A stretch of 28,329 nt of DNA from IMG/VR virus record IMGVR_UViG_3300024327_000758, positions 1 through 28,329 of that record; one strand, written 5' to 3'. Under the pieces are notes generated by a model. It saw nothing but the letters and a program-made list of their open reading frames with translations. It was not told the DNA's origin and searched no databases. Shown piece after piece: positions 5,257 through 24,661 of the stretch. This DNA is from a virus. Each line of letters starts with the position of its first letter. The stretch's first letter is position 1. The translations under genes and the position numbers were made by a program.

Positions 5257-7467
5257 TTACCTCCAGCTTCTTCGTTTTTTACGGCCAAAACGACCACGTT
5301 TGGGAGCATGCTGTACTTCACTTATTGGACGCATACCTTGCTCAGTACCTTGATAGGAGTTGATTCCTTCAAGTAGGGAGAACTCTTTCTCTTCTTTTAT
5401 ACTACGAGAACGACTTGATTTTCTATCATTAGGCAACAAACCTTCTCTAATATACTTTTCCCTTATCATTCTGTCTTCTTCTTCGGATCCACCACCCCGC
5501 ATTATTCGCAACACATTCAGTGCACCTGGATCAGATTGAAGTTTCTTTTGCTCATAAAGCTCTCGAATTTCATCATTCGGAGATCTATAAAGATTCTTTA
5601 TGGCTTCAACTTTATGGAAGGTAGGCATACTTGGAGTCATTTGGTTTCCAGAGTATACTGACTCTTCTAAAACCAACCCACCTAACGCTAGCATGAAAGC
5701 GTCGAGTCTATGATCTCCAACCTTTTCATTCTGCTTTCCGTATACTGGCTTGTTGTTCTGTTTGTTTCTTTTCTCTACGATGTAGTTGAAGAACTGATCT
5801 TTCAAGACAACGTCATCTACTGGAAATTTAAATAATCCGTCCTGAAGAATTCTAACTGCATTCTCAACTAAAAAATGCTTACCAGATTTTTTAATGTCCT
5901 TGTTGGTAATAGGATCTTTAAGCTTTATGTTGGAACTAAAATTAAATGATACTAAACGATCCGCTATTAAAACTGTCTCTGCCTCTTTAGCCGTCTTGTC
6001 TTGTTTGGCCCTAAGAGTATAGGATTGATATTTTATATCTTCTATGATTGTATGGCCGTATCCTTCGTCCGCATAGATATGGTCTGGTTTCCATTTATAA
6101 TTAAGATCGATTAACTCTTTTATCCACCGCCTAGCAGAGAATTCAGAGTGAGGTACGTTTACTGCATCCAATGCGATCCAAATTCTATCGCTTGGAAAAT
6201 AACCAATAACATAGAATTCAGTACCTGCATTTTTATTCCAGTCGATACCTATCGCTATGGTTCTCTCTGTTGCGGACTTTAACCCTAGTTTTTTCTGCAA
6301 ATGATGCGGAGAATAGGCTTCGTCGTATGTATAATCCAACCGAGCGCTGTAAATCCAATCTCTCTTGAACACCCCTTGAAGGTCGTCAATAAAGATTGCC
6401 ATGTACTCCGCCATGAAAGATTCTTGGGTTGAATCACGAAGTATCTCTTCTTTTATGGCTTCCCAATGCGGGATTACTGAACTAGGTAAAAAGTCTTCTC
6501 TAAAATCATCTCGCTTCAAACACCATTCGTGAAACTTACCTTTCTTACCAATTGGTGTAGATGTGGCGATTAAAATTGTATCAGGCGTTGTGGCCAGAAT
6601 AGGATTAATAACTTTATCTAATACTTCTTCTGGAATCATATCCATCTCATCCAAGTAGACGATAGATGCAGATTGACCACGCATAGTACCACCACCGCTG
6701 CCGTCAGATCTCATACCTATTCCAGAAACAAACCCTTGTATAACCGCACCGTTTTTCATTTCCATTTTAAAAGTTGGCGTCTTTATATATAAGCTATCTC
6801 CAGTACCAGAAGTAACTTCTGCTTTTAACTCTATGTTTCTCTTTAATAGTTTCTCCATCTCTTCAAAGAGATTCGTCAGTTGCGCTTGATAAGGCGTAAC
6901 GATCATTATCGCCGGCCCCATATAAACTATGTTCCCTTGCGCATCTCTACCTCTATCTAATTTAAGATTGTATGCGTAATACAATAGTTTTAATGCCATC
7001 GCAAAAGACTTACCTGAGCGACGACCTTCTCTTATTACCATCCTCTTTGAAGTGCATCTTATTTGTTCCTTCTGGTAGCTTCTTAAGAACCATTTATCAT
7101 CCCTATCAGAAAACCCAAACATTAACTCCACCCAAGATGCAGGATCTATTGAAGCCTTTAGTATTCTAGTCGCTTGTTCTTCTGGTATGTTTGTGCTTTT
7201 AGAGATCTCTTTTATTTTTGATGCAGCACCATCTGGAAGCTTTCTTGGTATGTAACTGCACTTTATCCTGTTGGTGCCATACTTCTTTATCTGCCGTATC
7301 TGACAAGTAACACAAGTCTTATGAACATCTGTCTTTAGCGAATACTCCCTCTTAAAATATGTTATTAATTCATCGGGTATTATTGCGGCAGGATCTTGAT
7401 GCTCAATCCCGTACTCGTTAACAGAATAAATATTATCATCTATTAATTGTTTTAATTTAGGATGCAT
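5257..7467 (-). CDS. terL: Terminase large subunit (packaging ATPase-nuclease, 736 aa)
   Basis: This is the DNA-packaging motor and headful/cos nuclease. The ATPase half has a Walker A at residues 147-154 (EGRRSGKS), a Walker B at about 268-274 (SIVYLDE, acidic D273/E274) and a coupling motif near 301-305 (ATSTP). The RNase H-like nuclease half shows the first acidic residue at D409 (IGIDW), the second at D467 (YADEG), and a third cluster D585/D589 (DHRLDA). All expected catalytic positions are present. An N-terminal extension with Cys52, Cys55 and Cys70 may bind a metal. The length is somewhat above the usual 450-650 residues, and a C-terminal basic tail (GRKKRRSW) follows the nuclease. The gene starts 2 bases after the stop of the 369-residue gene. 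The terminase identity is secure. Its fine subfamily is not. Confidence 0.97.
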   Translation of the reverse strand: MHPKLKQLIDDNIYSVNEYGIEHQDPAAIIPDELITYFKREYSLKTDVHKTCVTCQIRQIKKYGTNRIKCSYIPRKLPDGAASKIKEISKSTNIPEEQATRILKASIDPASWVELMFGFSDRDDKWFLRSYQKEQIRCTSKRMVIREGRRSGKSFAMALKLLYYAYNLKLDRGRDAQGNIVYMGPAIMIVTPYQAQLTNLFEEMEKLLKRNIELKAEVTSGTGDSLYIKTPTFKMEMKNGAVIQGFVSGIGMRSDGSGGGTMRGQSASIVYLDEMDMIPEEVLDKVINPILATTPDTILIATSTPIGKKGKFHEWCLKRDDFREDFLPSSVIPHWEAIKEEILRDSTQESFMAEYMAIFIDDLQGVFKRDWIYSARLDYTYDEAYSPHHLQKKLGLKSATERTIAIGIDWNKNAGTEFYVIGYFPSDRIWIALDAVNVPHSEFSARRWIKELIDLNYKWKPDHIYADEGYGHTIIEDIKYQSYTLRAKQDKTAKEAETVLIADRLVSFNFSSNIKLKDPITNKDIKKSGKHFLVENAVRILQDGLFKFPVDDVVLKDQFFNYIVEKRNKQNNKPVYGKQNEKVGDHRLDAFMLALGGLVLEESVYSGNQMTPSMPTFHKVEAIKNLYRSPNDEIRELYEQKKLQSDPGALNVLRIMRGGGSEEEDRMIREKYIREGLLPNDRKSSRSRSIKEEKEFSLLEGINSYQGTEQGMRPISEVQHAPKRGRFGRKKRRSWR

Positions 7468-8581: not shown

Positions 8582-11500
8582 TTACATCCTATTGTGTCCA
8601 ATTGGAGAGTTGAACATATTCTTATTAGCGGAGAGCTGAAGGCTCTCCATCATAACTTGCCTTTTGTATTTTTGCATTTCTGCTAGCTGATTTTCTCTCT
8701 GTTTGTTAACTTTTGCAGCTTCATGTACGTTTCTTGCCGCCAAAGTATCCTTTACCATATGATAGTTGTTTTCTCTTAAAGATCTAGTATTCAATTTATA
8801 CTCGTTCTTTTTGGAGCCCCTACTCTTTATCATGCTGCCTAGATCACTTTTAATTTGATCCAAACTTGAAAGAATTGAATTGGTGTTATATCCGAAAGAT
8901 TGTAAATCCAATTCATGTGCAGAAGAAAACTTTTTATCTGGCCTAAAGATACTAGTGTTATTCTTCGATTGAGAAGCCTTAAATCTTTCAGCGGTTTGAG
9001 TAATATCTCCCATGATTTGATCAGTTACGCCACCAGCCCTATCTGCTTGATTCATTAAAGAGTAGATAGACATCAAGTTTGCATTTCTTGATACCTTAGA
9101 GATGTTCGCTAAAGTGTTGAATGTAACCGTCTCTCCACTTGCTTTAGAAATCTCCTTATAGGCTTGGAAATATCCTGTGTTCCACATTCCCCTTTTGGAT
9201 TCTTGTGCTGATTCTTGTGCATCTTCAAAAGCTTTTTGATTATATATCGGCGGCTTGCCTTTGGACTTGTATGGCAAGTAGGCAGCAGCACCACGTTTAA
9301 CTAGCTCTAAATTTAAATTCTTTCCATCCACATAGATCATACCTACTTGTCGACCATATGTAGTGTCGCCTTGTCGACCAACAAGTCTTACATCTTTTGC
9401 TTTCGCAATTAATTCGCTAGCTATCGCCTTGGCCTTTTCTGCAAAAGGCTGAGCACGTCTATCTTGGTGAGCAATCTCCGGAGAGTCGATTCCTGCTAAA
9501 CGTATAGACATTGAATCTTGACGACCAGTGCCCATAAAACTCGATAGCGGTGAATTAATATTTCCTTTTCTTTTTATTGAGACCGTATCCGCGTCCTCAA
9601 CATTTATCTCGAATCTGCTTTTATCGAACTCATATTCAATAAGATTCTTGCCTCGAACTCCAGTCCCATACCTCTCCTGGTCAATTGGTTTCGCACCACT
9701 AAAGATGATATTCCGACTCTCTTTAGATGTACCCATCTGACGTCTAAAAGCAGTGGATAGGAACCTCTTAAAGAAGAATCCAATATCACCCTGCTCTGAG
9801 AAATGTCTAACACCAAATTTTTGCTGTATGTACTTGTGTCTCTCCCTTCTTAATTTATGATCTTCTAATACTCCTTGTGTATAAGCTGGACCTTGATAGG
9901 GCGAACCAAAATCTGTAAAAGCTTTGTTTAGCATTGAGGCTAAACCAGTTTGTGGCAAACCTTCCAGTCTGCCATATTTTGCCTTAACACTATTTATGTA
10001 AGCTTCCTGATCGTTACCATAGAACTGGCTTTGTGCTTCTAAAAACTGCTCGTAGTTTGGAGCTAAAAGCTCCCCTTGCTCCTCTTTATGAGCAGTCCTG
10101 GTAGATAGGACTGCTAATGCTCCGGTTAGTATTCCATATTTACCTAAATGACTCTTGCCTATTTCTCTCAATCCTTTTGACAAAGTAGGTGACTCTGCTC
10201 TTTGAGCAGTTCTACTAACGCTCTCCGCAGCGCTACTGACCGGTGGTACAACTCTAGGTGTCGGTGGGACGCTGGGAGGTGGTGGCGGAATAGGGCCTGG
10301 TGGCTTCACCCCAGGGGTGGGTCGTGGTGGTGTGGCTGGACTTGGCGGTGTAGCTGGACCTGGTGGCTTTGCTCCAGCACCTGGAGGTGATGGGGGCACA
10401 ACCCTAGGAGTTGGAACTATGCTTCTTCTAGAGCCCCTCGGCTTCAGTGGAGGGGTGGCTGGAGTGATAGATGTTCTTTCTATATCTCTACTTCCTATAA
10501 ACATCTGTATGTTGTCCAAAAATTGCTTGGTTACTTGTCCATCTCCAAGTCGCCTTGCAAACATATCTACTACTTTGTCTGAAGCTTCAGCATCTTTTAA
10601 AGCAACTTCCCGCATGCTTCCCTTTGTGGCTTCCACTACTGTACCTGAAGCGTCAAAGAAACTACTATATTTTGTTCTCGCCTCTACAAGTGCTTGAGTC
10701 TTGTCGACATGCTTATACTCATCCAAGTTCTCAAGATGCTTAAGTACATCATCAACACTTGTAAGATGAACTTGCTTACTCTTTGGGCCTACCTGGACTT
10801 TGCTCTTCTCAGTAATGTCGCCAAGTTTCTTAACTTGCTCTACAACTCTATATCCCGGCTTCTGCTGTCTTGTGACTAAAGATTTATTCTCAGCCATCTC
10901 CACCATGCTCTTACCTATACGTTGTCGAAATCCCAACTCATCTAATCCTGCCGAGACCTCCCCGCCACTTAATTTAGCTTGTTGATTAAAATAGTTCGCC
11001 AAACTTCCATAGGCCATGTGTCGAAAGTAAGCGCCCTTACCCTCGGATGCTTGCCTAAATAATTCCTTACCTTCTGCACCACCTAAGTCCACAAGTCGCT
11101 TAGCCTCTAATTGCTCCATTGACTCGGAGAATACTCTCGCCTCTGTAACGCTAGTGTCACCTAGCGCCATGTGAGACTCTGCTTCTTTCAAAGATTTAAT
11201 AGCATCATCCATAGATAGCTGTCGACCTTCTGTTTCAGCGAGTCGCATCTGCTCTGTGAATCCATATAAGCGGCCTTGAACCTCCATTGATAACGAAGTC
11301 GGAGCCTTCTCGTCTATAATCCCCTGATTTATTAATTGAGACTGTTGTGACTTAACCAAGTCCAAGATGTCTCGTACGTCGCCTTCACCGGTATGCTTTA
11401 ATACTGCTTCATAAAGCCCAGAGTAATCTTTACTCTTTAGTGCTTGAGCTTTAATCTTGTTGTACGCCAGGTTAGTAGAATAGAATGGATCACCAGATGT

Positions 11501-12766
11501 AGCAGACACACCTTCTATCACCCCATAAAAGGGGTTCTTAGTTAGTAGCTCTTTCTTCCCTGCTTTGACTCTGTCTATATTTAAAGTATCCAACTCCTTC
11601 TCATATCTGCCGTATTGAAATCCTTTGTGAAACTTATCTCTATCTAAAGGTGCCAATCCAGTACCTATAGTTCCACGATGTGCATTTAGGGCTTCAAGTG
11701 ATTCTTCTGCTAAGTCATTTATTTGGCCACCAAATTGTTTCGCCTCAAAAGAGGCATTAGCAATCCAAGTTACTTTCCCTTTGAGTGCGCTAGCTAAATC
11801 TCCTGTCATTAAATCTTTTATTGATGAAGTGTGCTTCCAGGTTAAACCACCTGTAAATCTTTCACTAATATCGCTAAGATCTCTACCGCTCGCCTTACTG
11901 ATCATCTCTACGAGCTCGTTAGTATTTCCGACACCACCACTAGAGATTCTTTCGAATACTCGTCGCTTCTCTATACTCTCAGGAGTTAGTTTACCTGTCG
12001 CCCTGTCAGTACCAATTTTAGCAGTCTCCAACTTAGCTTCATCAGCCATTAACAACGCTTGGAACCTATCCGTCTTGATTAAGTAGTCCTCAACACCAGA
12101 GACTACATCTTTTTTGCCTGCTTCAGGAACAACACCTTCAGCCAAGTCGAATACTGATATCTTGCCTGTAGTGTACTCATTAGCAAGATTCTTTACGGTG
12201 TCACCCATAGTAGTAACATCTTCGCCAGCCTTAATCATATCTATTAAAGTGCTGGCAAACTTACCATCCTTGTGACTTTTAACATCATACCTTCTAGAGG
12301 CTAATCTGCGCCCTCTACGAGATAGTCCCTGCTCACCACCTTCTTTATCAGTAACTATCAGTTCAGGCGTGGGCCTGAACATAAGACCCTTCTTTTCGGT
12401 AGGATCATACAAAGCTATTTGATGAATAATATCTGGGCCTCTAAGGCCTGTAGTTTCTATGTCCAGGAAGACAGACTTCTTAATTATTTCATCTCTGGAT
12501 AGACTTACATTTGGCCCAACATTCTTTATATTATATTTTGGAGCACCCGTAGAGTCTGTACCGCTACGTTCCGAAGCATGAATCGAGATTATTTCAGCCT
12601 TCTTACCATAGACTGCTTTTACCTTCTGAGCTATATCTGCTTCTACTTGCTTTGGAAGTAGGGCGAAGCCGTATTCTTCCTTCTTGCCATTGACAAGTAC
12701 TTCAACAAAGACATATTGAGGACTACCACTAGTGTTGATATAGGTGTGATACTTATTCTTAATCAT
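8582..12766 (-). CDS. Dual-nuclease giant protein: DEDDh exonuclease plus SNase-like domain (1394 aa)
   Basis: The N-terminal part carries a DEDDh 3'-5' exonuclease signature. Exo I is at residues 101-107 (LDIETTG, D102/E104). Exo II is N337-A-S-F-E341, with Glu where Asp is usual. Exo III is H458-x4-D463 followed by VRDILDL. A helical region (about 480-760) and a long Pro-rich linker (about 766-845) come next, then a short hydrophobic helix (about 876-888). A staphylococcal nuclease-like domain follows at about 1050-1200, with metal-site D1058/D1060, catalytic R1089 and E1097 (RLAGIDSPE) and R1139 (TYGR), so the catalytic set is intact. The exonuclease could trim or degrade DNA and the SNase cuts DNA or RNA. 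Placement beside the terminase and membrane-like virion proteins suggests a packaged, injected enzyme, or one acting on packaged ends. This role is inferred. The start overlaps the upstream gene by 8 bases. Confidence 0.9.
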   Translation of the reverse strand: MIKNKYHTYINTSGSPQYVFVEVLVNGKKEEYGFALLPKQVEADIAQKVKAVYGKKAEIISIHASERSGTDSTGAPKYNIKNVGPNVSLSRDEIIKKSVFLDIETTGLRGPDIIHQIALYDPTEKKGLMFRPTPELIVTDKEGGEQGLSRRGRRLASRRYDVKSHKDGKFASTLIDMIKAGEDVTTMGDTVKNLANEYTTGKISVFDLAEGVVPEAGKKDVVSGVEDYLIKTDRFQALLMADEAKLETAKIGTDRATGKLTPESIEKRRVFERISSGGVGNTNELVEMISKASGRDLSDISERFTGGLTWKHTSSIKDLMTGDLASALKGKVTWIANASFEAKQFGGQINDLAEESLEALNAHRGTIGTGLAPLDRDKFHKGFQYGRYEKELDTLNIDRVKAGKKELLTKNPFYGVIEGVSATSGDPFYSTNLAYNKIKAQALKSKDYSGLYEAVLKHTGEGDVRDILDLVKSQQSQLINQGIIDEKAPTSLSMEVQGRLYGFTEQMRLAETEGRQLSMDDAIKSLKEAESHMALGDTSVTEARVFSESMEQLEAKRLVDLGGAEGKELFRQASEGKGAYFRHMAYGSLANYFNQQAKLSGGEVSAGLDELGFRQRIGKSMVEMAENKSLVTRQQKPGYRVVEQVKKLGDITEKSKVQVGPKSKQVHLTSVDDVLKHLENLDEYKHVDKTQALVEARTKYSSFFDASGTVVEATKGSMREVALKDAEASDKVVDMFARRLGDGQVTKQFLDNIQMFIGSRDIERTSITPATPPLKPRGSRRSIVPTPRVVPPSPPGAGAKPPGPATPPSPATPPRPTPGVKPPGPIPPPPPSVPPTPRVVPPVSSAAESVSRTAQRAESPTLSKGLREIGKSHLGKYGILTGALAVLSTRTAHKEEQGELLAPNYEQFLEAQSQFYGNDQEAYINSVKAKYGRLEGLPQTGLASMLNKAFTDFGSPYQGPAYTQGVLEDHKLRRERHKYIQQKFGVRHFSEQGDIGFFFKRFLSTAFRRQMGTSKESRNIIFSGAKPIDQERYGTGVRGKNLIEYEFDKSRFEINVEDADTVSIKRKGNINSPLSSFMGTGRQDSMSIRLAGIDSPEIAHQDRRAQPFAEKAKAIASELIAKAKDVRLVGRQGDTTYGRQVGMIYVDGKNLNLELVKRGAAAYLPYKSKGKPPIYNQKAFEDAQESAQESKRGMWNTGYFQAYKEISKASGETVTFNTLANISKVSRNANLMSIYSLMNQADRAGGVTDQIMGDITQTAERFKASQSKNNTSIFRPDKKFSSAHELDLQSFGYNTNSILSSLDQIKSDLGSMIKSRGSKKNEYKLNTRSLRENNYHMVKDTLAARNVHEAAKVNKQRENQLAEMQKYKRQVMMESLQLSANKNMFNSPIGHNRM
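10232..10471 (-). other. Pro-rich interdomain linker segment of the dual-nuclease gene
   Basis: About 80 codons encode almost only Pro, Ala, Gly, Val, Thr and Ser with scattered Arg and Lys, in imperfect PPTPRVVPP and ATPP units. It separates the exonuclease-helical half from the SNase half. Its base composition (G-rich on the plus strand) departs sharply from the flanking gene and creates spurious antisense open frames. Confidence 0.8.
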
Positions 12767-16826: not shown

Positions 16827-17948
16827 ATGCGTAACTTATCTATTCTGGCCTTCATTGGCTTCTCTATCATCTTTAGTGGCTGTGGTACAATCCGTACCGC
16901 AGCCATTGCGATTCACCATGACACCTGTATCGCACACTACAACATGTTTGTGTGCGCTACTCCTGCGCCACCTGCTGCCATCGAGAGCGATAAACCGTGT
17001 GTTGGCACTGCTGTACGTAGCAGTACCAGTGCCACTATGACGACCTTCGGGTCAGTGGGCACTAAGGGTTGTAAACTCCTTCATCAACAACTACAGATAA
17101 AATCCCTTAAGAGTAAGGCAGGGACGAAGTGCAGCATCAACAACAACCAAGAAGTTGTATGCGCTGGGCTGAACGGTCCCATTGCGTTGGCATTCCTTCT
17201 TCTTTTCGCTCTCGGTAGAGTATTCCCCCGTACAAGAGTAGCGTGCGGTGTTATCGCTATGGTTATTGGCATTGTAACATGTGTGTCAGATGCTAATGCC
17301 AAGTGCACTGAGCTCTCATCATTTGAAGAGGCCCACAAAACAGGTGACATGTTTGCTCCCATGCGTTTTAATGCTACCGCAAGCATTGCAAAACCGATGC
17401 TAGATATGATGTTGAACGAAGACGCACAACCGTCAATTCGTAAATTTGCAATTAAAATGATTAACGACCATTATTTTTGCAATGTGGGTAACGACCCTAA
17501 GGCGATCATGGAGAAAATAACAGCAACCAAAGATTTCCTTAATCTAGAGTGTAAGAAAGAAGGCGATGAAGTTAAGTGTGCCGGCCTTAACCATCCTGGA
17601 GCTCTCTTACTCGTTTTATTCTTCTTCCTGTTAGCTCGATTGGAGGGCAACAGGTCTGTATCCGTAATTGTTCTCAGTGTTATGGGATGCTTGGTGGCTT
17701 CTTTTGCCGATGCGGCAACAAAAGACGGCTGCACCCTCAATAATGAGAGGGTCTATGAGGCTATCGAGAATTCCTGCACGCCTGACATCCTGATGAGCCT
17801 GATCGAGGAGGTCGATCTTGAGTGTACTGAGGAGCACCGTATGGAGGGCGCTTCACTATCCATGGCTGCTGCTGCGGGTGGCCTGCTCCCAAAAGCAGAT
17901 CTTCGTTTACGCTTTTTAGAAGCGCTTTGTTGGAAAATGCAACCGTAG
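16827..17948 (+). CDS. Modular lipoprotein-like membrane protein with repeated Cys/TM units (373 aa)
   Basis: The N-terminus has a hydrophobic core ending in F-S-G-C19, resembling a lipoprotein signal with its acylated Cys. Three related modules follow. Each ends in a Cys-bounded motif: C102...EVVC112-AGLNGP, L240-E-C242...EVKC251-AGLNHP, and a degenerate L331-E-C333...MEGASLS. The first two lead into pairs of hydrophobic helices (about 117-131/137-153 and 256-270/278-294), and each pair ends in an Ala-x-Ala stretch like a signal peptidase site (SDANA, FADAA). This reads as an internally duplicated protein with Cys-rich exported domains between membrane hairpins. The family is unknown. AAAGGAC precedes the ATG, and a terminator follows the stop. 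Confidence 0.75.
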   Translation: MRNLSILAFIGFSIIFSGCGTIRTAAIAIHHDTCIAHYNMFVCATPAPPAAIESDKPCVGTAVRSSTSATMTTFGSVGTKGCKLLHQQLQIKSLKSKAGTKCSINNNQEVVCAGLNGPIALAFLLLFALGRVFPRTRVACGVIAMVIGIVTCVSDANAKCTELSSFEEAHKTGDMFAPMRFNATASIAKPMLDMMLNEDAQPSIRKFAIKMINDHYFCNVGNDPKAIMEKITATKDFLNLECKKEGDEVKCAGLNHPGALLLVLFFFLLARLEGNRSVSVIVLSVMGCLVASFADAATKDGCTLNNERVYEAIENSCTPDILMSLIEEVDLECTEEHRMEGASLSMAAAAGGLLPKADLRLRFLEALCWKMQP

Positions 17949-17993: not shown

Positions 17994-18031
17994 GCCCTGA
18001 AGTGCACCACTGCACTCCGGGGCATTTTTTT
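17994..18031 (+). terminator. Rho-independent terminator after the lipoprotein-like gene
   Basis: The outer stem GCCCTG (17994-17999) pairs with CGGGGC (18018-18023), and the inner stem GTGCA pairs with TGCAC. Seven T residues follow. This is a strong intrinsic terminator, with one T-G pair favouring plus-strand use. Confidence 0.85.
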
Positions 18032-18133: not shown

Positions 18134-21100
18134 ATGCGTAACGCCATTATCTCATTCTTCTTCGGCCTGCTGTGGACTACTGTATGCTATTCAGTGTATG
18201 TAGCCCCACAAGCAGCGTCTGTGTCCGTCGTGGATGCAGCGCCAACTTATGTAGCAGAGGCTCCAAAGTCTCTTGCTACCAACCGCACCACACCAGCAAC
18301 CGTTAAGATTGACCATCTTCGCAGTACTACCATTAACAGTGGAAGCTCTACCCCTAGTCAGAGTACCTTCCCCATCAACCACAGCGCATTACGTCCTAAT
18401 AATTGTCGTATTGTGCGCCGTAGAAAGTTGAAGTCACGAAAAGGTAATCACCTGATTGGTGATGTCTTTATCAAGTTCATTTTCAGTTACCACCGTGTAA
18501 CTTACATGAGCGACAACTGGTTATGTTATGAAGAGACGCCTTACACAGAGGCAGACTTCAAAGTGAGCGACCCAGCTAAGGCCCGCAAGAAAGCAAAGAA
18601 ATCCTGGCGGCAGCTAAAGGGTGAGGCAACACGTCTTTACCAGAAAGCTGCGGTTTTACGTTTGCGCAATCCAGAATATCCGCCTGCAATAGCTCGTGCG
18701 GTGTTTGCCAAAGCACAAAAACTTCATCACCGCGCAAATGTTATGAAGAAGGCACTCAAAGAGTCTCAACCAACGGCGCGTCAACAGCGTCTATTCAGAC
18801 GAGAGCTCTTCAGGGCACAAGCAAAAACTTGCCAGCAGTTCATTAAAGCTGAGATGGTGAGTAACGTTGATGAAGCCAATGAGCTGATTCAAAAGGTTCT
18901 CAGCGGTGATACTAATGGAACTGCATTGAGACTATTACAAAAGAATCAATTAGGCCGTATTTACATAAAGCATGGCCTACTGCAAGTAGCGGCAAAAGAG
19001 GAAAAGGTTGAGAGACCTACGAATCCACGAGTCGTACACCACAAAGTAAAGCAAGAAGAAACACCTGTAAGAGTGTGGACGCCATTGATGCGTGCTGCTA
19101 TCGTTCTTGTCGCACCACTTATGTTAGGCATGAGTGCAGACGCAGGTACCCTAGTAGAAGTTGCTTACGCGGGTGCAACCACAGCGACAATACTGAAGAT
19201 GACCTTGCAGAACATCTTGAACACTCCAGCACGTAAGCGTGAAGCGGCGCAAGACGGGTACAATCGCTATGCTGAGCAGTCTATCAAGTCTGCAAAGAGT
19301 AGTGAGTGGGATGTCTTCTCGCTTATGCGCTTTAGCCGTAGTGGCAAGGGTGGAGTGAATCCCAACGGTAAAGCTCACTTAACCGACAAACAAAAGGGCA
19401 GATGTGTTCGTATCGTCCAAGACAGCATTGGTGGAGCTTACTGTCCGAAGGTAAAGTCATTCGCCAAGATGCTCGGCATTGAGCTCGGCGTTGATAATTG
19501 TCTTCGCTACGAGATCGATGATCAAATGGATGAGGTACTAAAAGCTGACGTAGTAGAGATACTTATGGCAGCTCGCTTTATTATTCTGTGTGATGGTTTT
19601 GCTGTCCACGAGAGTATTGCTCGTCCATTCATTGAGTACGGTGAGGCGATGTTTGAGAACGCAGTAGGTGTAAGATCTTACTTCCGCTCTTTAGTCACTA
19701 CACCGTCTTTATACGTGGTCAACGAAGATCTACCCATCTTCTTGGCTGACCTAGCCACTTTAATGGGTTGGGTTGAAAACGATGGTGGTGCAGTGCACAC
19801 GAACCGCCTTTCGATCTCGATGCAGTTTAGAGGAATTGCTAAGGTACTCGAGAAGAAATACCATGTTCTCAGTAAGGGCATTTCTACAGGTGCCAAGGTG
19901 ATCGCTGACATCACTGACGGTATTGATAAGCCTAGTTTCGTTAACTACGAGGGCGATGAGCCAGGCCACGTCAAGGGTGAGGTCCGCCTAAGCAAAAAGG
20001 TAGACGAATGCATTCGTGTTGCAGTCGAAGAAGAGTTCAATGCTCTCCACGCTGTGAATGCTGCAACAGAACAACAACTGTGTCTCGTCCATGGCATTGG
20101 GATTGAGACCGCCAAGAAGATCATCAAAGCACGAGTAGATGCAGGGGGACGATTTACAGACATGGACGCTTTCTACGGTGTGTCTAAACGTCTCGATCCT
20201 AATAACCCCGATGCCCTTAAAGTATTACGCTGGACCTTTGGTCACAAAGAGCGTGTATATAGTGTGGGCTTGTTCCTTGATAAATCTACATTGAAAGGGG
20301 CAGATAAAAATGCCTGGGATTTTGATAAGCTCAACCTTTTCGGCATCAATGGGCAAAATGTTGATTTCTGGGCTATCGCTATCGATCAAATAGGTGGTGA
20401 GATTTCATTGGGATGGCAAGTTGTTCAGCTATTAGATGCCGACTTCATCGGTGGATTGTTTCAGAACCTTGATGGTAGCTATGGGATTGCAGCTGAGAAA
20501 TTAGCAAAGCAAATTGACAATGCTATTGAAGCAGAGCACCCGCTGGTAAAGAAACTCATTAATGCTATCGATGATGAAGGTGGTGAATACGAAGACCTTA
20601 TGCCAGCTGTGAAGGCCATCTCTGTCTTGCAGGGCCTTGGCAAGACCGCGTCCAAGCGCATCAGCAATGGTCTCGGTGCAAAGGCGGGCTCCTACTATGT
20701 CCAGATGATCGACATGGGTGGCGACTGGGTCATCATCAAAACACCCAAAGCTAAGGACGGTAAAGGCTTTAAGCGCTGGGCTGCATGTTTCTTCGGCCGC
20801 ACGCCGAACCAGGGACATGAAACTGTGCGTGCTCCCATGGCACTTTCACCATCTTATGTTGGCGCATTCTTGAGGGATTACCTCAAAGATGGACTTGAAG
20901 GAGTTGAGAAACATGGCAAACAAGCAGAGCAGTTTTGCATGAAACTGAATATTAATTGCGGTCATGACAATGATGCAACTCGTTTACGCTGTCGTGCGAT
21001 CTTGACTATGTTACCGGGTGTTATTGATGGCATTGCTCTCGTTGACAGCACTCTTCAACAAAAAGTGTGTGGAGATAACGACGGTGATAGAAATATGATC

Positions 21101-24100
21101 AGCTTCGATAAGATGCTGGTCAGCATCGCCAAGCATATCACCCGTAAACATCCGGCTACGTTCCCTGCGCGTGAGCAGTCAAAGAAATTTGTACTGAACA
21201 CGTTCGATGACGTGGTCTTGGAGAAGGGTGGTTGGCTTCGTAGCTTTGATGAATATATGAACACCGGAGACTCTTCAGAGTTACTTCTAGTCTCCAAGTT
21301 CCTTTCTGCCCCTGGTGGGACTCCAGGACAGGGGAACGTCGGTGGTGTGACGCAATGTGCTGCTGCACCCATGTTGTTCTGCGAATGGCACTGGGTTAAG
21401 AAAGGTGGCAAAGACGTTTATGAGCCTGTCAATCCAGCTGCTCGTAAGTTAGTCAACTATCTCTATCTGTGTCAGCAGATTGCAATTGATAGGCAGAAAT
21501 ATTACTACCTAGCACCGTCACTTCTATTCTGGTTCCTTGCTGACTTGACTGTTGGTGAGGCAGTCATTAAGCAGCTGAAAGCAGGTGGCCATGTAGACTC
21601 TAAGTGGCTTCACAGTCATTACCCTATTCAGGGTGCTGCTGATATGTCGTTCGAAGAATACCAACAGGCTTGGGAGAATGGTACTCTACCAGAGATCTCA
21701 GAAGTAATACCCGGTATGGGTAAGGGCGCTCTTGGTGGAGAGTCTGTCGCTCCAATGATGTATAATAACGGTCCGCTTTATGTGCACACGGCATGGCAGG
21801 TTAATGCCATCAACCTCGGCTTCGGTTACTTTGACGAGAAAATGATGACTGAGCTTTCTGAGTTCTTCGATAAAGAGACCGCTCAGACTGCTAATTGGGG
21901 AGCCATTGTCAAACACCTTGGTCTCACCATCTCAGCTGAAAAACTGGAAGAAATGTGGGTTTGGCCTAGCTACATCACAGGGTGGGTTGGACTCAATTTC
22001 CGGAGCAATCAAGATTTAGCTCCAGAAACATTCCAATCAGCCCGAATCCACGCAAATAATGTGTGGTTAGAAAAGATGGCAAAAGCTGGACTGAATGCAG
22101 ATCCTGCAGTTACATTGTCTGAAAGTCCTCTTGCTGAGGTTCTGAAAGAAGAAGCCGGTGATTACGCTATTGAAATGAAACCGTGGGCTACTCGTTTGCT
22201 TGCGACTACTATATACCGTTCATATGTCGGTGAAAGTTCAAACGCGGTTGAAGCGATGAGTCAAAGCGCTAGAACCCAAACCGATCATCACGCATCAGGT
22301 GCGGACAAGTTGTCGTTCCTTCGTGCAGCGTTGACATCACGTGACATGAACGTAGAAGTCGCAGATATGTCCGTGATGGATAAGATCAAGAACCTTCGTT
22401 TCATCTGGGCTAAAGCTCTTCAGAATGACAAAATGTCAGATGAGCGACGCTATCAAGTGCTCTGTGCAATGATGCACTTCGGTATCTGTGTAATTAAAGA
22501 TTGTCTTGATGACATAGAAAACGATAAGACCAGTGTTATCGCCACAAATGTGATCTGGGCACTTGAGGATCATACCATTGCTGACATTGCCAAGCTAACT
22601 ACAAGCGAGGCGTGGAGAGCATGGCGCAATGAGAACGATGCAGACCGCAGTACTGCAGTAGCAAAAGAGCGGCGTGAAGCGATGGACAGTGTTCGCAAGT
22701 TGATGAATAAAGATGGATTTTACCATTGGATTTCAGAGCAAAACCTTAGCACCTTAAAGGCTGAGGATATCGCTACTTGGCTCATCATGGACGGCGAAGA
22801 AAGCCACAGTAAGATCATCGACTTCATCGGTAGCGATTTCTTTGGTGCTATTGGAGAAGGTTGGGATCGTCAAGAGCTCAAAGAATCTCGCAATAGTGTT
22901 GAAGAAGAACTTAACGGTGCTTTGCAGCATTTGAAGAAAATTCCCGTTGATGACAATTTCATGGATGGGGTTGAAACATATGCTCGAGATCTGATTCAAT
23001 GGATCCGAGACGATGAGCTAGAAGCTCAAAGTGGTGAGAAGACTGACGAGGCTCAAATGGCGTGGTATTCTTTGAATGCACGTGAATATGAGCGTGAGGT
23101 TGCGTCAATCACTCGACCAATCACTTCGATGATTCGTCTTGTGAAGCATCAGATGAGAATCCTCGTTCATAATGTTAACAATGGTGTTAACTTCGAGGAC
23201 GAGGAAGCAGCTTTCTGGCCTGCAATCGAAGGAGCCCTCTTCGGCACTCATAAGGAGTTGAATGAGGAAACTGGAGAATGGGAAGAAGTAACTCACGTAG
23301 AAAGCCGCATCGTTTACGAATTACCAGAGCAACATCTCGCAGAAATGAACCTAGCTGCACTTGAGCAAGGTTATGATGTGGAGATTTTGGTGAATATGAT
23401 AAATGGTGCTCGCAACTTCTACGCAGATGATGAGGGTGAGATTGAGTATCCATCAGAGCCTGAAGAGTATTATCTTACACGAAAAGGGTACATCCATTTG
23501 AGCTCTATTATGACGCAAATGGTTCTTGGAACTAAAAGTCGTGAAGATGTATTGGTATGGCTACTTGCCCAATTTAAAGGCGGTGTAGGTCATGTTACTA
23601 CTAGTCAACACCTCACTATGGCGTATGGTCCTGCTGAAGGGCGTGACCACTTCTGGTTCGTAACTTTGGAGCAGTATCCTCAGTTCCACAACGACCTTGT
23701 CGTTTGTGAAGTGCAAGCAGCGTTCGAAGAGTGCTACCCAGAACGTGTGGCTATCGAGTACTTCCATGACGACGATGAAGAGACCCTTGATGCGTTGGAA
23801 TGCTTTGGTGATCCTCAAAATCACAGTGAAGATGATGCGGAGTACTACGAGAATTACTATCGTGAACGATTCGAAGTAGAGCTTTACCTACCACCACTAT
23901 TTGGTGGCCGTTCTAACTGGGATGAGTTGTACGATGGTAAGTACAGTAAGTTCTATGACCAGCAGCTCGTTATGACCCCTTATAAGATGCTACGTACGTA
24001 TGCATTCATGATGGAGGGTAAAGATGTGTCTCAAATGAGCCTTCCTACTGAAGTGCGTGATTTCCAGAATGACGTCTTTGGCTACACTGTTGGTGACAGT

Positions 24101-24661
24101 AAAAAGCAAGATAAGTCACAGCAAAGTAGAGAAGCTGACAAACGTACTGGACGTAAGCCTAAACACACAGCTCTAAAGAACAACATGACTAAGAAGTCTT
24201 GTGCTACTTGGACATGGGCTGGAGTTGAGAAACCAATCACTTCAGATCTTGATGTTGATTTTAACGGTTCTGACAACTTGCAGGAGAGTAACAATTTCTG
24301 TGATATCAGTGTCCGTGGTTACGATAACCATCAGTATGATGAGTGTTGGCGTGGTGCTTACAGCTTGGTGCGTTTTACACCAAGTTTATTGTGGAGCTTC
24401 GCTAATGTTATGGAGAGCGGCGACTTCCAAGAAATCAATGCACGATCTATTGCCAAGGTTGGTACGTCCTCTGTTCGTCGCTACTGTGTGGGTTTCCGTA
24501 AGGCTAACTTCACTCAAATGGTCAAGGGCGTCACAGTAAAGTCTGTAGAGATGAATTCGACAGTGGTACGCGCCCTCTTTGATATCCTTGCGAATGAAGA
24601 AGAGTTGGAAATCGGTATGGATGCCTTAGGTGGTCCTGACCGTCCATTCACTGTGGATTGA
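18134..24661 (+). CDS. Giant protein, candidate single-chain two-barrel RNA polymerase (2175 aa)
   Basis: The key signature is D981-N-D983-G-D985, followed by RNM-I-S-F-D992. This has the same spacing as the D-x-D-G-D...W/F-D catalytic loop of QDE-1-type RNA polymerases. Upstream, P961-GVIDGIAL aligns in spacing with the P-VLIEGKAI strand of cellular beta-prime. R889-T-P891 could be the substrate-contacting RxP. Downstream lie a Gly-rich segment (about 1061-1074) like the bridge region, and Q1114-x3-I-D119-type QQIAIDRQK (1114-1122), resembling the I-D-x-x-K of YonO/RDR-like enzymes. The length is close to crAss-like virion polymerase gp66 (about 2180). Also visible are a hydrophobic N-terminus (5-30), another hydrophobic stretch (about 318-338), and two helix-hairpin-helix-like motifs (about 646-667 and 828-850). 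I could not locate the beta-like barrel lysines. The start is set by AAAGGGACG. The RNA polymerase call rests on motif reading only. Confidence 0.65.
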   Translation: MRNAIISFFFGLLWTTVCYSVYVAPQAASVSVVDAAPTYVAEAPKSLATNRTTPATVKIDHLRSTTINSGSSTPSQSTFPINHSALRPNNCRIVRRRKLKSRKGNHLIGDVFIKFIFSYHRVTYMSDNWLCYEETPYTEADFKVSDPAKARKKAKKSWRQLKGEATRLYQKAAVLRLRNPEYPPAIARAVFAKAQKLHHRANVMKKALKESQPTARQQRLFRRELFRAQAKTCQQFIKAEMVSNVDEANELIQKVLSGDTNGTALRLLQKNQLGRIYIKHGLLQVAAKEEKVERPTNPRVVHHKVKQEETPVRVWTPLMRAAIVLVAPLMLGMSADAGTLVEVAYAGATTATILKMTLQNILNTPARKREAAQDGYNRYAEQSIKSAKSSEWDVFSLMRFSRSGKGGVNPNGKAHLTDKQKGRCVRIVQDSIGGAYCPKVKSFAKMLGIELGVDNCLRYEIDDQMDEVLKADVVEILMAARFIILCDGFAVHESIARPFIEYGEAMFENAVGVRSYFRSLVTTPSLYVVNEDLPIFLADLATLMGWVENDGGAVHTNRLSISMQFRGIAKVLEKKYHVLSKGISTGAKVIADITDGIDKPSFVNYEGDEPGHVKGEVRLSKKVDECIRVAVEEEFNALHAVNAATEQQLCLVHGIGIETAKKIIKARVDAGGRFTDMDAFYGVSKRLDPNNPDALKVLRWTFGHKERVYSVGLFLDKSTLKGADKNAWDFDKLNLFGINGQNVDFWAIAIDQIGGEISLGWQVVQLLDADFIGGLFQNLDGSYGIAAEKLAKQIDNAIEAEHPLVKKLINAIDDEGGEYEDLMPAVKAISVLQGLGKTASKRISNGLGAKAGSYYVQMIDMGGDWVIIKTPKAKDGKGFKRWAACFFGRTPNQGHETVRAPMALSPSYVGAFLRDYLKDGLEGVEKHGKQAEQFCMKLNINCGHDNDATRLRCRAILTMLPGVIDGIALVDSTLQQKVCGDNDGDRNMISFDKMLVSIAKHITRKHPATFPAREQSKKFVLNTFDDVVLEKGGWLRSFDEYMNTGDSSELLLVSKFLSAPGGTPGQGNVGGVTQCAAAPMLFCEWHWVKKGGKDVYEPVNPAARKLVNYLYLCQQIAIDRQKYYYLAPSLLFWFLADLTVGEAVIKQLKAGGHVDSKWLHSHYPIQGAADMSFEEYQQAWENGTLPEISEVIPGMGKGALGGESVAPMMYNNGPLYVHTAWQVNAINLGFGYFDEKMMTELSEFFDKETAQTANWGAIVKHLGLTISAEKLEEMWVWPSYITGWVGLNFRSNQDLAPETFQSARIHANNVWLEKMAKAGLNADPAVTLSESPLAEVLKEEAGDYAIEMKPWATRLLATTIYRSYVGESSNAVEAMSQSARTQTDHHASGADKLSFLRAALTSRDMNVEVADMSVMDKIKNLRFIWAKALQNDKMSDERRYQVLCAMMHFGICVIKDCLDDIENDKTSVIATNVIWALEDHTIADIAKLTTSEAWRAWRNENDADRSTAVAKERREAMDSVRKLMNKDGFYHWISEQNLSTLKAEDIATWLIMDGEESHSKIIDFIGSDFFGAIGEGWDRQELKESRNSVEEELNGALQHLKKIPVDDNFMDGVETYARDLIQWIRDDELEAQSGEKTDEAQMAWYSLNAREYEREVASITRPITSMIRLVKHQMRILVHNVNNGVNFEDEEAAFWPAIEGALFGTHKELNEETGEWEEVTHVESRIVYELPEQHLAEMNLAALEQGYDVEILVNMINGARNFYADDEGEIEYPSEPEEYYLTRKGYIHLSSIMTQMVLGTKSREDVLVWLLAQFKGGVGHVTTSQHLTMAYGPAEGRDHFWFVTLEQYPQFHNDLVVCEVQAAFEECYPERVAIEYFHDDDEETLDALECFGDPQNHSEDDAEYYENYYRERFEVELYLPPLFGGRSNWDELYDGKYSKFYDQQLVMTPYKMLRTYAFMMEGKDVSQMSLPTEVRDFQNDVFGYTVGDSKKQDKSQQSREADKRTGRKPKHTALKNNMTKKSCATWTWAGVEKPITSDLDVDFNGSDNLQESNNFCDISVRGYDNHQYDECWRGAYSLVRFTPSLLWSFANVMESGDFQEINARSIAKVGTSSVRRYCVGFRKANFTQMVKGVTVKSVEMNSTVVRALFDILANEEELEIGMDALGGPDRPFTVD

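Follow-up and report, generated by a model that had tools for sequence, protein, structure and literature searches.

A putative, very divergent single-chain RNA polymerase nearest to YonO in an uncultured marine phage

The open reading frame and its conserved motifs

The DNA considered here, IMG/VR virus record IMGVR_UViG_3300024327_000758, comes from an uncultured marine phage and was analysed over its whole 28,329 bases (the window). Its plus strand carries, at 18134–24661, a single open reading frame (ORF) that begins with ATG, runs without an internal stop and encodes a protein of 2175 aa, a putative single-chain two-barrel RNA polymerase related to YonO of SPbeta. A previous, sequence-only reading of this DNA had pointed to five motifs, and all are present in the ORF: RTP (residues 889–891), PGVIDGIAL (961–969), DNDGD, a Gly-rich stretch at 1061–1074 (GGTPGQGNVGGVTQ) and I-D-x-x-K. 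The first of these lies within GRTPNQGH (residues 888–895; 20795–20818, + strand), in which, by eye, an RxP likeness to RIPNQGQ of phi14:2 gp66 and RSPH of YonO can be discerned. D981-N-D983-G-D985 (21074–21088, +) is the proposed catalytic Mg2+ triad. Downstream, VGGVTQ (1069–1074; 21338–21355, +) aligns with IGEYSN of YonO (592–597), and I1118-D1119-R-Q-K1122 (21485–21499, +) with IDFAK (624–628). Between RxP and LPGVIDG there is an insertion of about 53 residues (905–957; 20846–21004, +), partly helical by prediction; the figure of roughly 55 residues given previously is thus sound, as P891 and P961 are 70 residues apart and a count by eye for gp66 gives about 18.

A DxDGD motif carries little weight by itself: 172 of 5000 residue shuffles of the 2175-aa protein contain one, and it is therefore conservation among relatives that raises the motif above chance. 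Four records of the family are known, including the present one. Two of them (L001 and L002) encode an identical protein (P0002), which is 78–79% identical to the 2175-aa protein over its full length. The other (locus L028, protein P0007) lies on a record of 161,781 bases, G001, and is also 2175 aa long; its identity is 30% overall and 28% over 1955 aligned columns, and is higher, at 45–46%, in the stretch aligned to residues 836–1135. RTP, DNDGD and IDxxK are kept in both relatives (79% and 30% identity), with all three aspartates identical. Against a mean three-way identity of 0.24, the two best 15-residue windows, each with 13 of 15 positions identical, are 885–899 (RTPNQGH) and 973–987 (GDNDGD); the six best-conserved windows start at 885, 973, 757, 1809, 1065 and 1011, and five of these fall within the proposed polymerase core. 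The remaining one, residues 1809–1823 (23558–23602; WLLAQFKGGVGHVTT), is among the four best-conserved windows, lies about 700 residues past the catalytic core and probably marks a second functional domain.

Relatives were sought in viral-contig scans (one by DNA pattern, one via the terminase and one via YonO) and in genome-contig scans, and neither yielded further true relatives; a genome-contig match (L136) was discarded as a frame overprinted on what appears to be a SpoT/RelA-type gene. The whole protein had no tblastn match in 50,697 phage records, and the five records returned by tblastn of the core share a single weak marine/cyanophage match (E 1).

Similarity to the YonO family

For profile comparison, gp66, gp64, YonO and residues 1–1200 of gp96 were translated from public records (gp64 and gp96 are those of Thermus phage P23-45). 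In hhalign, a two-row family profile aligned with the single YonO sequence over residues 959–1001 on 516–555 (E 0.0073); with gp66, gp64 and gp96, no in-register alignment was obtained. Shallow profiles were insignificant, as in a published comparison which describes many polymerase families as having no significant similarity to each other outside the DxDxD region (PMC10770324); in our hands, the best E-values of shallow profiles between known families were 0.0041 to 0.19. A deep YonO alignment was therefore built, for which 79 loci were collected and 44 sequences kept (YonO and 43 of 71 candidates, at 85% redundancy). Against this 44-member profile, hhalign gave a score of 32.3 (E 0.0089) for residues 380–1260 and 32.9 (E 0.016) for the full-length protein; the best of 40 column shuffles of the core reached 28.5 and the reversed core 21.7, whilst YonO against gp66, both proven polymerases, scores only 18.6. 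The full-length alignment, which was unguided, superposes DNDGD on DNDGD, NVGGVT on NIGEYS and AIDRQK on TIDFAK, and places the triad on D535/D537/D539 of YonO; the core run (380–1260) aligned only the IDxxK region and beyond.

The deep profile was additionally used to rank single sequences, namely 88 phage ORFs of at least 300 aa, taken stop to stop on both strands from 13 sources. The 2175-aa protein came second (score 27.3; residues 979–1002 on YonO 533–556) and its P0007 homolog third (26.8; 922–949 of the open frame on YonO 528–555), in both cases with DNDGD on DNDGD. A five-row YonO profile found no match in G001 at E-values up to 10, where the SPbeta control is detected at 3e-302; because this profile misses the protein in a genome search, we do not file it as a member of the YonO family, and judge it from these comparisons to be YonO-like at the superfamily level.

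Unguided multiple alignment with MAFFT, using residues 540–1140 of the three relatives and 44 YonO-family fragments (YonO 240–640), gave zero offset to the YonO invariants for DG550, R566, KG581, K721, Q762, Q765, D981, G1070 and D1119. These zero offsets hold for the auto and localpair settings; genafpair puts K721 off too. A further alignment of 40 rows (A15; three of the family and 37 YonO relatives), within which the core is only 15–22% identical to the YonO-family rows, has among its invariant columns D550, G551, G552, R566, K581, G582, K721, Q762 and Q765, as well as D981, D983, G984, D985, P1011, G1070, I1118, D1119 and K1122. As the nine positions had been picked once the invariant columns were known, all 63 YonO columns conserved at 90% were counted instead (with 23 of the 44 YonO rows used): 27 are matched by the 2175-aa protein and 20 by all three relatives, compared with at most 25 and 18, respectively, in 128 column shuffles. 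Together with the shuffles of column blocks described below, this amounts to moderate support from alignment for a relationship to YonO, at roughly the 1% level and in line with hhalign.

Proposed architecture and alternative explanations

The sequence-only reading had left the beta-like barrel unlocated. The unguided alignment does allow it to be placed, as a prediction, at about residues 545–755, by means of DG550, R566, KG581, K721 and Q762/Q765, and split by a helix-hairpin-helix domain. Its proposed start is NDGG (549–552; 19778–19789, +), of which D550-G551 aligns with D249-G250 of YonO; R566 and K581-G582 (19829–19879, +) align with R266 and K271-G272, K721 of FLDKSTLK (714–721; 20273–20296, +) with K316 (SxxK), and Q762/Q765 of ISLGWQVVQLLDADF (757–771; 20402–20446, +) with Q355/Q358 (YQxLQ). 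R566, K581 and K721 are invariant in the alignment, and the barrel would supply K581, K721 and perhaps R566 as basic residues. The helix-hairpin-helix domain (641–684; 20054–20185, +; Pfam HHH_3, E 3.6e-5) falls between KG and K721, recurs in the P0007 homolog (577–616; E 6.5e-6) and probably touches the DNA backbone; both matches are just below the Pfam cut-off score. A beta'-like barrel, at about 850–1000, would in turn supply the Mg2+-binding triad D981/D983/D985, and would carry the helical insertion ahead of the triad, at a place where lineage-specific inserts also occur in other RNA polymerases. The segment 1060–1125 (VGGVT ... IDRQK) would be the counterpart of the conserved YonO elements downstream of the triad, and the large N- and C-terminal parts may be clamp or accessory domains. 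A literature search combining helix-hairpin-helix, double-psi, RNA polymerase and phage found no report of such an arrangement, and one for this phage or for marine YonO-like enzymes found nothing specific.

Several observations weigh against a polymerase of this kind. Low-confidence AlphaFold models of residues 380–1260 (three rows; pLDDT 31.8) and of 540–1140 (the 40 rows of A15; pLDDT 44.5) resolve no barrel; the latter is also partly circular, as its alignment presumes homology, and its best-scoring part consists of helices at about residues 910–949. No RNA polymerase match by sequence was obtained in Pfam, PHROGs or the PDB, although YonO, gp66 and gp64 are themselves without a Pfam match; phmmer and profile searches of the PDB returned one nanobody at E 1.3, followed by helix-hairpin-helix proteins and chance matches. 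With shallow profiles, YonO scored 21.1 (E 0.17) and gp66 reached the same E-value of 0.17 out of register, and gp66, gp64 and gp96 never score well in profile comparison. The first of the 88 ranked ORFs is a relative of gp66 (28.9), out of register, which shows that scores of the size of 27.3 and 26.8 also arise without register; the known polymerase gp96 is eighth, in register. In the MAFFT alignment, RxP is out of register by 10–30 columns, and when we mapped the motifs by eye, the invariant columns of the family were already known to us. Finally, when columns were shuffled in blocks of 10, 1 of 168 shuffles reached at least 27 (the best, 29) and 2 of 168 at least 20.

One alternative is coincidence, in which an unrelated large protein happens to contain a DxDGD and some similar-looking motifs. 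The frequency of DxDGD in shuffled sequences, statistics around 1% and the low confidence of the models would all suit such a protein; it would, however, require that a chance motif be the best-conserved part of a 30%-identical homolog and that two programs, unguided, each place it in register with YonO, and we consider this the least probable of the explanations. Only slightly less remote is a giant adhesin or structural protein in which DNDGD forms a calcium-binding loop of the EF-hand, dockerin or thrombospondin-3 type. The motif is Asp-rich, the size and novelty of the protein would suit a virion component, and a separate protein of the sister phage does have such repeats (DNDGDG...DPDDDNDG). 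Calcium loops, however, follow the pattern DxDxDG, with Gly at position 6, whereas here the arrangement is that of RNA polymerases, with Gly at position 4 and Arg after the third Asp; moreover, no calcium-binding family is found in the 2175-aa protein by Pfam at E-values up to 10, the motif is single and co-conserved with RTPNQGH, NVGG and IDxxK, and the homolog has Asn rather than Asp at loop position 12.

Somewhat more credible, albeit still improbable, is a two-barrel enzyme that does not transcribe, whether it resembles DNA polymerase D or a primase or is an inactive derivative with a structural role. Many proteins of DNA repair and replication contain helix-hairpin-helix domains, and the 2175-aa protein is between two and three times as large as YonO. 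DNA polymerase D is described as having the same two-barrel active site (PMC10770324). The motif set and its order nevertheless match YonO, and the retention of three Asp and the basic residues across 30% identity argues against a dead enzyme. We therefore favour, with a probability of about 85%, a very divergent, new single-chain two-barrel RNA polymerase that is nearest to YonO and most likely transcribes the phage genes. The motifs, their order, their conservation and the profile similarity to YonO are the basis of this assignment, from which the fold, the roles of the residues and the transcription of phage genes are inferred. The ordered conserved motifs and the YonO profile match support the core of the sequence-only reading, a divergent single-chain two-barrel RNA polymerase, with YonO rather than gp66 as the nearest known family.

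Of the known relatives of the transcription enzyme shared by all cells, two-barrel single-chain RNA polymerases are the simplest, and no more than a handful have been characterised. So divergent a family, in which both proposed barrels carry domain insertions, would broaden the range of forms known for the active-site scaffold. It would also explain transcription in a marine phage for which no beta' homolog is detected: beta' domain 2 (PF00623) was found in none of the three related records, and in all 14 control genomes. PF05183 (QDE-1 type) likewise has no match in the three relatives' records at E-values up to 10, with only B. subtilis appearing among the controls, below the cut-off; PF00940 (T7-like polymerase) matched nothing, not even a control, and is hence uninformative.

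Genomic context and comparison with known polymerases

The start of the gene is ambiguous. Upstream of 18134 there is a plausible ribosome site, AAAGGGAC, with no evident counterpart ahead of Met125, yet codon-position substitutions relative to L001 show little coding periodicity at the start of the protein: the rates are 0.226/0.137/0.258 for residues 1–124 (18134–18505, +), a region with a hydrophobic start and of doubtful coding status, and 0.103/0.060/0.477 for residues 860–1140. The start may have been assigned wrongly, or another constraint may act on the first 124 codons; for this reason, the hydrophobic first residues are not to be taken as a signal peptide. A terminator-like hairpin followed by a T run is visible by eye at 17994–18031, in the gap that separates the polymerase gene from its predecessor, although a computational scan did not report it. 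The 21 sigma-70-like promoters do not exceed expectation (26.4), and a search upstream of 53 ORFs brought up no recurring promoter motif, only words resembling ribosome-binding sites.

The polymerase gene diverges from a block of minus-strand genes that holds a T4-type large terminase (5257–7467, −; PF03237, E 1.2e-9) and, two genes from it, a 1394-aa protein (8582–12766, −) with a staphylococcal-nuclease domain at residues 1088–1196 (PF00565, E 5.6e-21). The nine minus-strand (late-strand) proteins are 51–87% identical to those of the sister phage G001 (terminase 87%, nuclease-domain protein 63%), compared with 28% for the polymerase and 26% for the gene directly upstream (16827–17948) (L037/L038); relative to L001, the values are 61% for the nuclease-domain protein, 78% for the polymerase and 43% for the upstream gene. 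That the nuclease-domain protein is equally diverged and the polymerase very unequally suggests replacement of the polymerase by a distant allele, or recombination, from a comparison of few genes and no tree. It is a tentative and rather doubtful extension of this that a new polymerase family, with a helix-hairpin-helix inside its beta-like barrel, is swapped as a module between sister phages that keep their virion; were it so, one phage lineage would exchange its transcription system, and presumably its promoter code too, while the virion stays.

Among ORFs of at least 250 aa in 160 kb of G001, a record that may be incomplete, a search for DxDxD-like motifs found GDNDGD with RxP upstream only in the L028 homolog. 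The same genome encodes a 2434-aa late protein (L040:1239–8540) with GDDYDIDDFF (DYDID), which could possibly be a second DxDxD polymerase, albeit unproven, or be unrelated; the thrombospondin-3-like Asp repeats that resemble calcium loops (PDNDGDGLPNVLDPDDDNDG) are at L039:12214–13809. Terminases similar to that of the window occur in MTATph1, ME3 and KLEB27-3 (E 1e-32 to 6e-22), and none of these three matches either the family profile or the YonO profile (0 of 3 in each case). A note in the ME3 record ties ME3 to Bacillus phage 0305phi8-36, which, according to PMC7824862, has a YonO-like single-chain polymerase.

Amongst known enzymes, the overall motif scheme is also like that of QDE-1 and the eukaryotic RNA-dependent RNA polymerases. 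Thermus phage P23-45 gp64 shares GADYDGD and AVDRQK, and gp96 shares GVDFDGD, but neither has detectable profile similarity; moreover, the fusion to a tape measure protein that gp96 shows is not seen in the 2175-aa protein. The crAss-like phage RNA polymerase phi14:2 gp66 (PDB 6VR4; PMC10770324) is likewise a giant single chain, and the length of about 2180 residues previously quoted for it is correct (2180 aa), with RIPNQGQ ... LPEAMGD ... DxD in common. The accompanying claim that gp66 uses D-x-D-G-D was mistaken: it has GSDFDIDK, hence DFDID, and its hhalign scores of 20.8–20.9 are at shuffle level, such that membership of the gp66 family was rejected. With YonO, by contrast, the likeness extends to DNDGD and its flanks (DNDGD-K/R-xx-I), DG...R...KG, K316, YQxLQ, an IGxxSN-like element and IDxxK, all in the same order; a change of its Asp triad to Asn abolished RNA extension (PMC5467207). 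YonO differs in its size, 839 aa as opposed to 2175, and the helix-hairpin-helix and the insertion of about 53 aa belong to the longer protein. Overall, we conclude from these sequence comparisons that the closest known enzyme appears to be SPbeta YonO, not crAss gp66.

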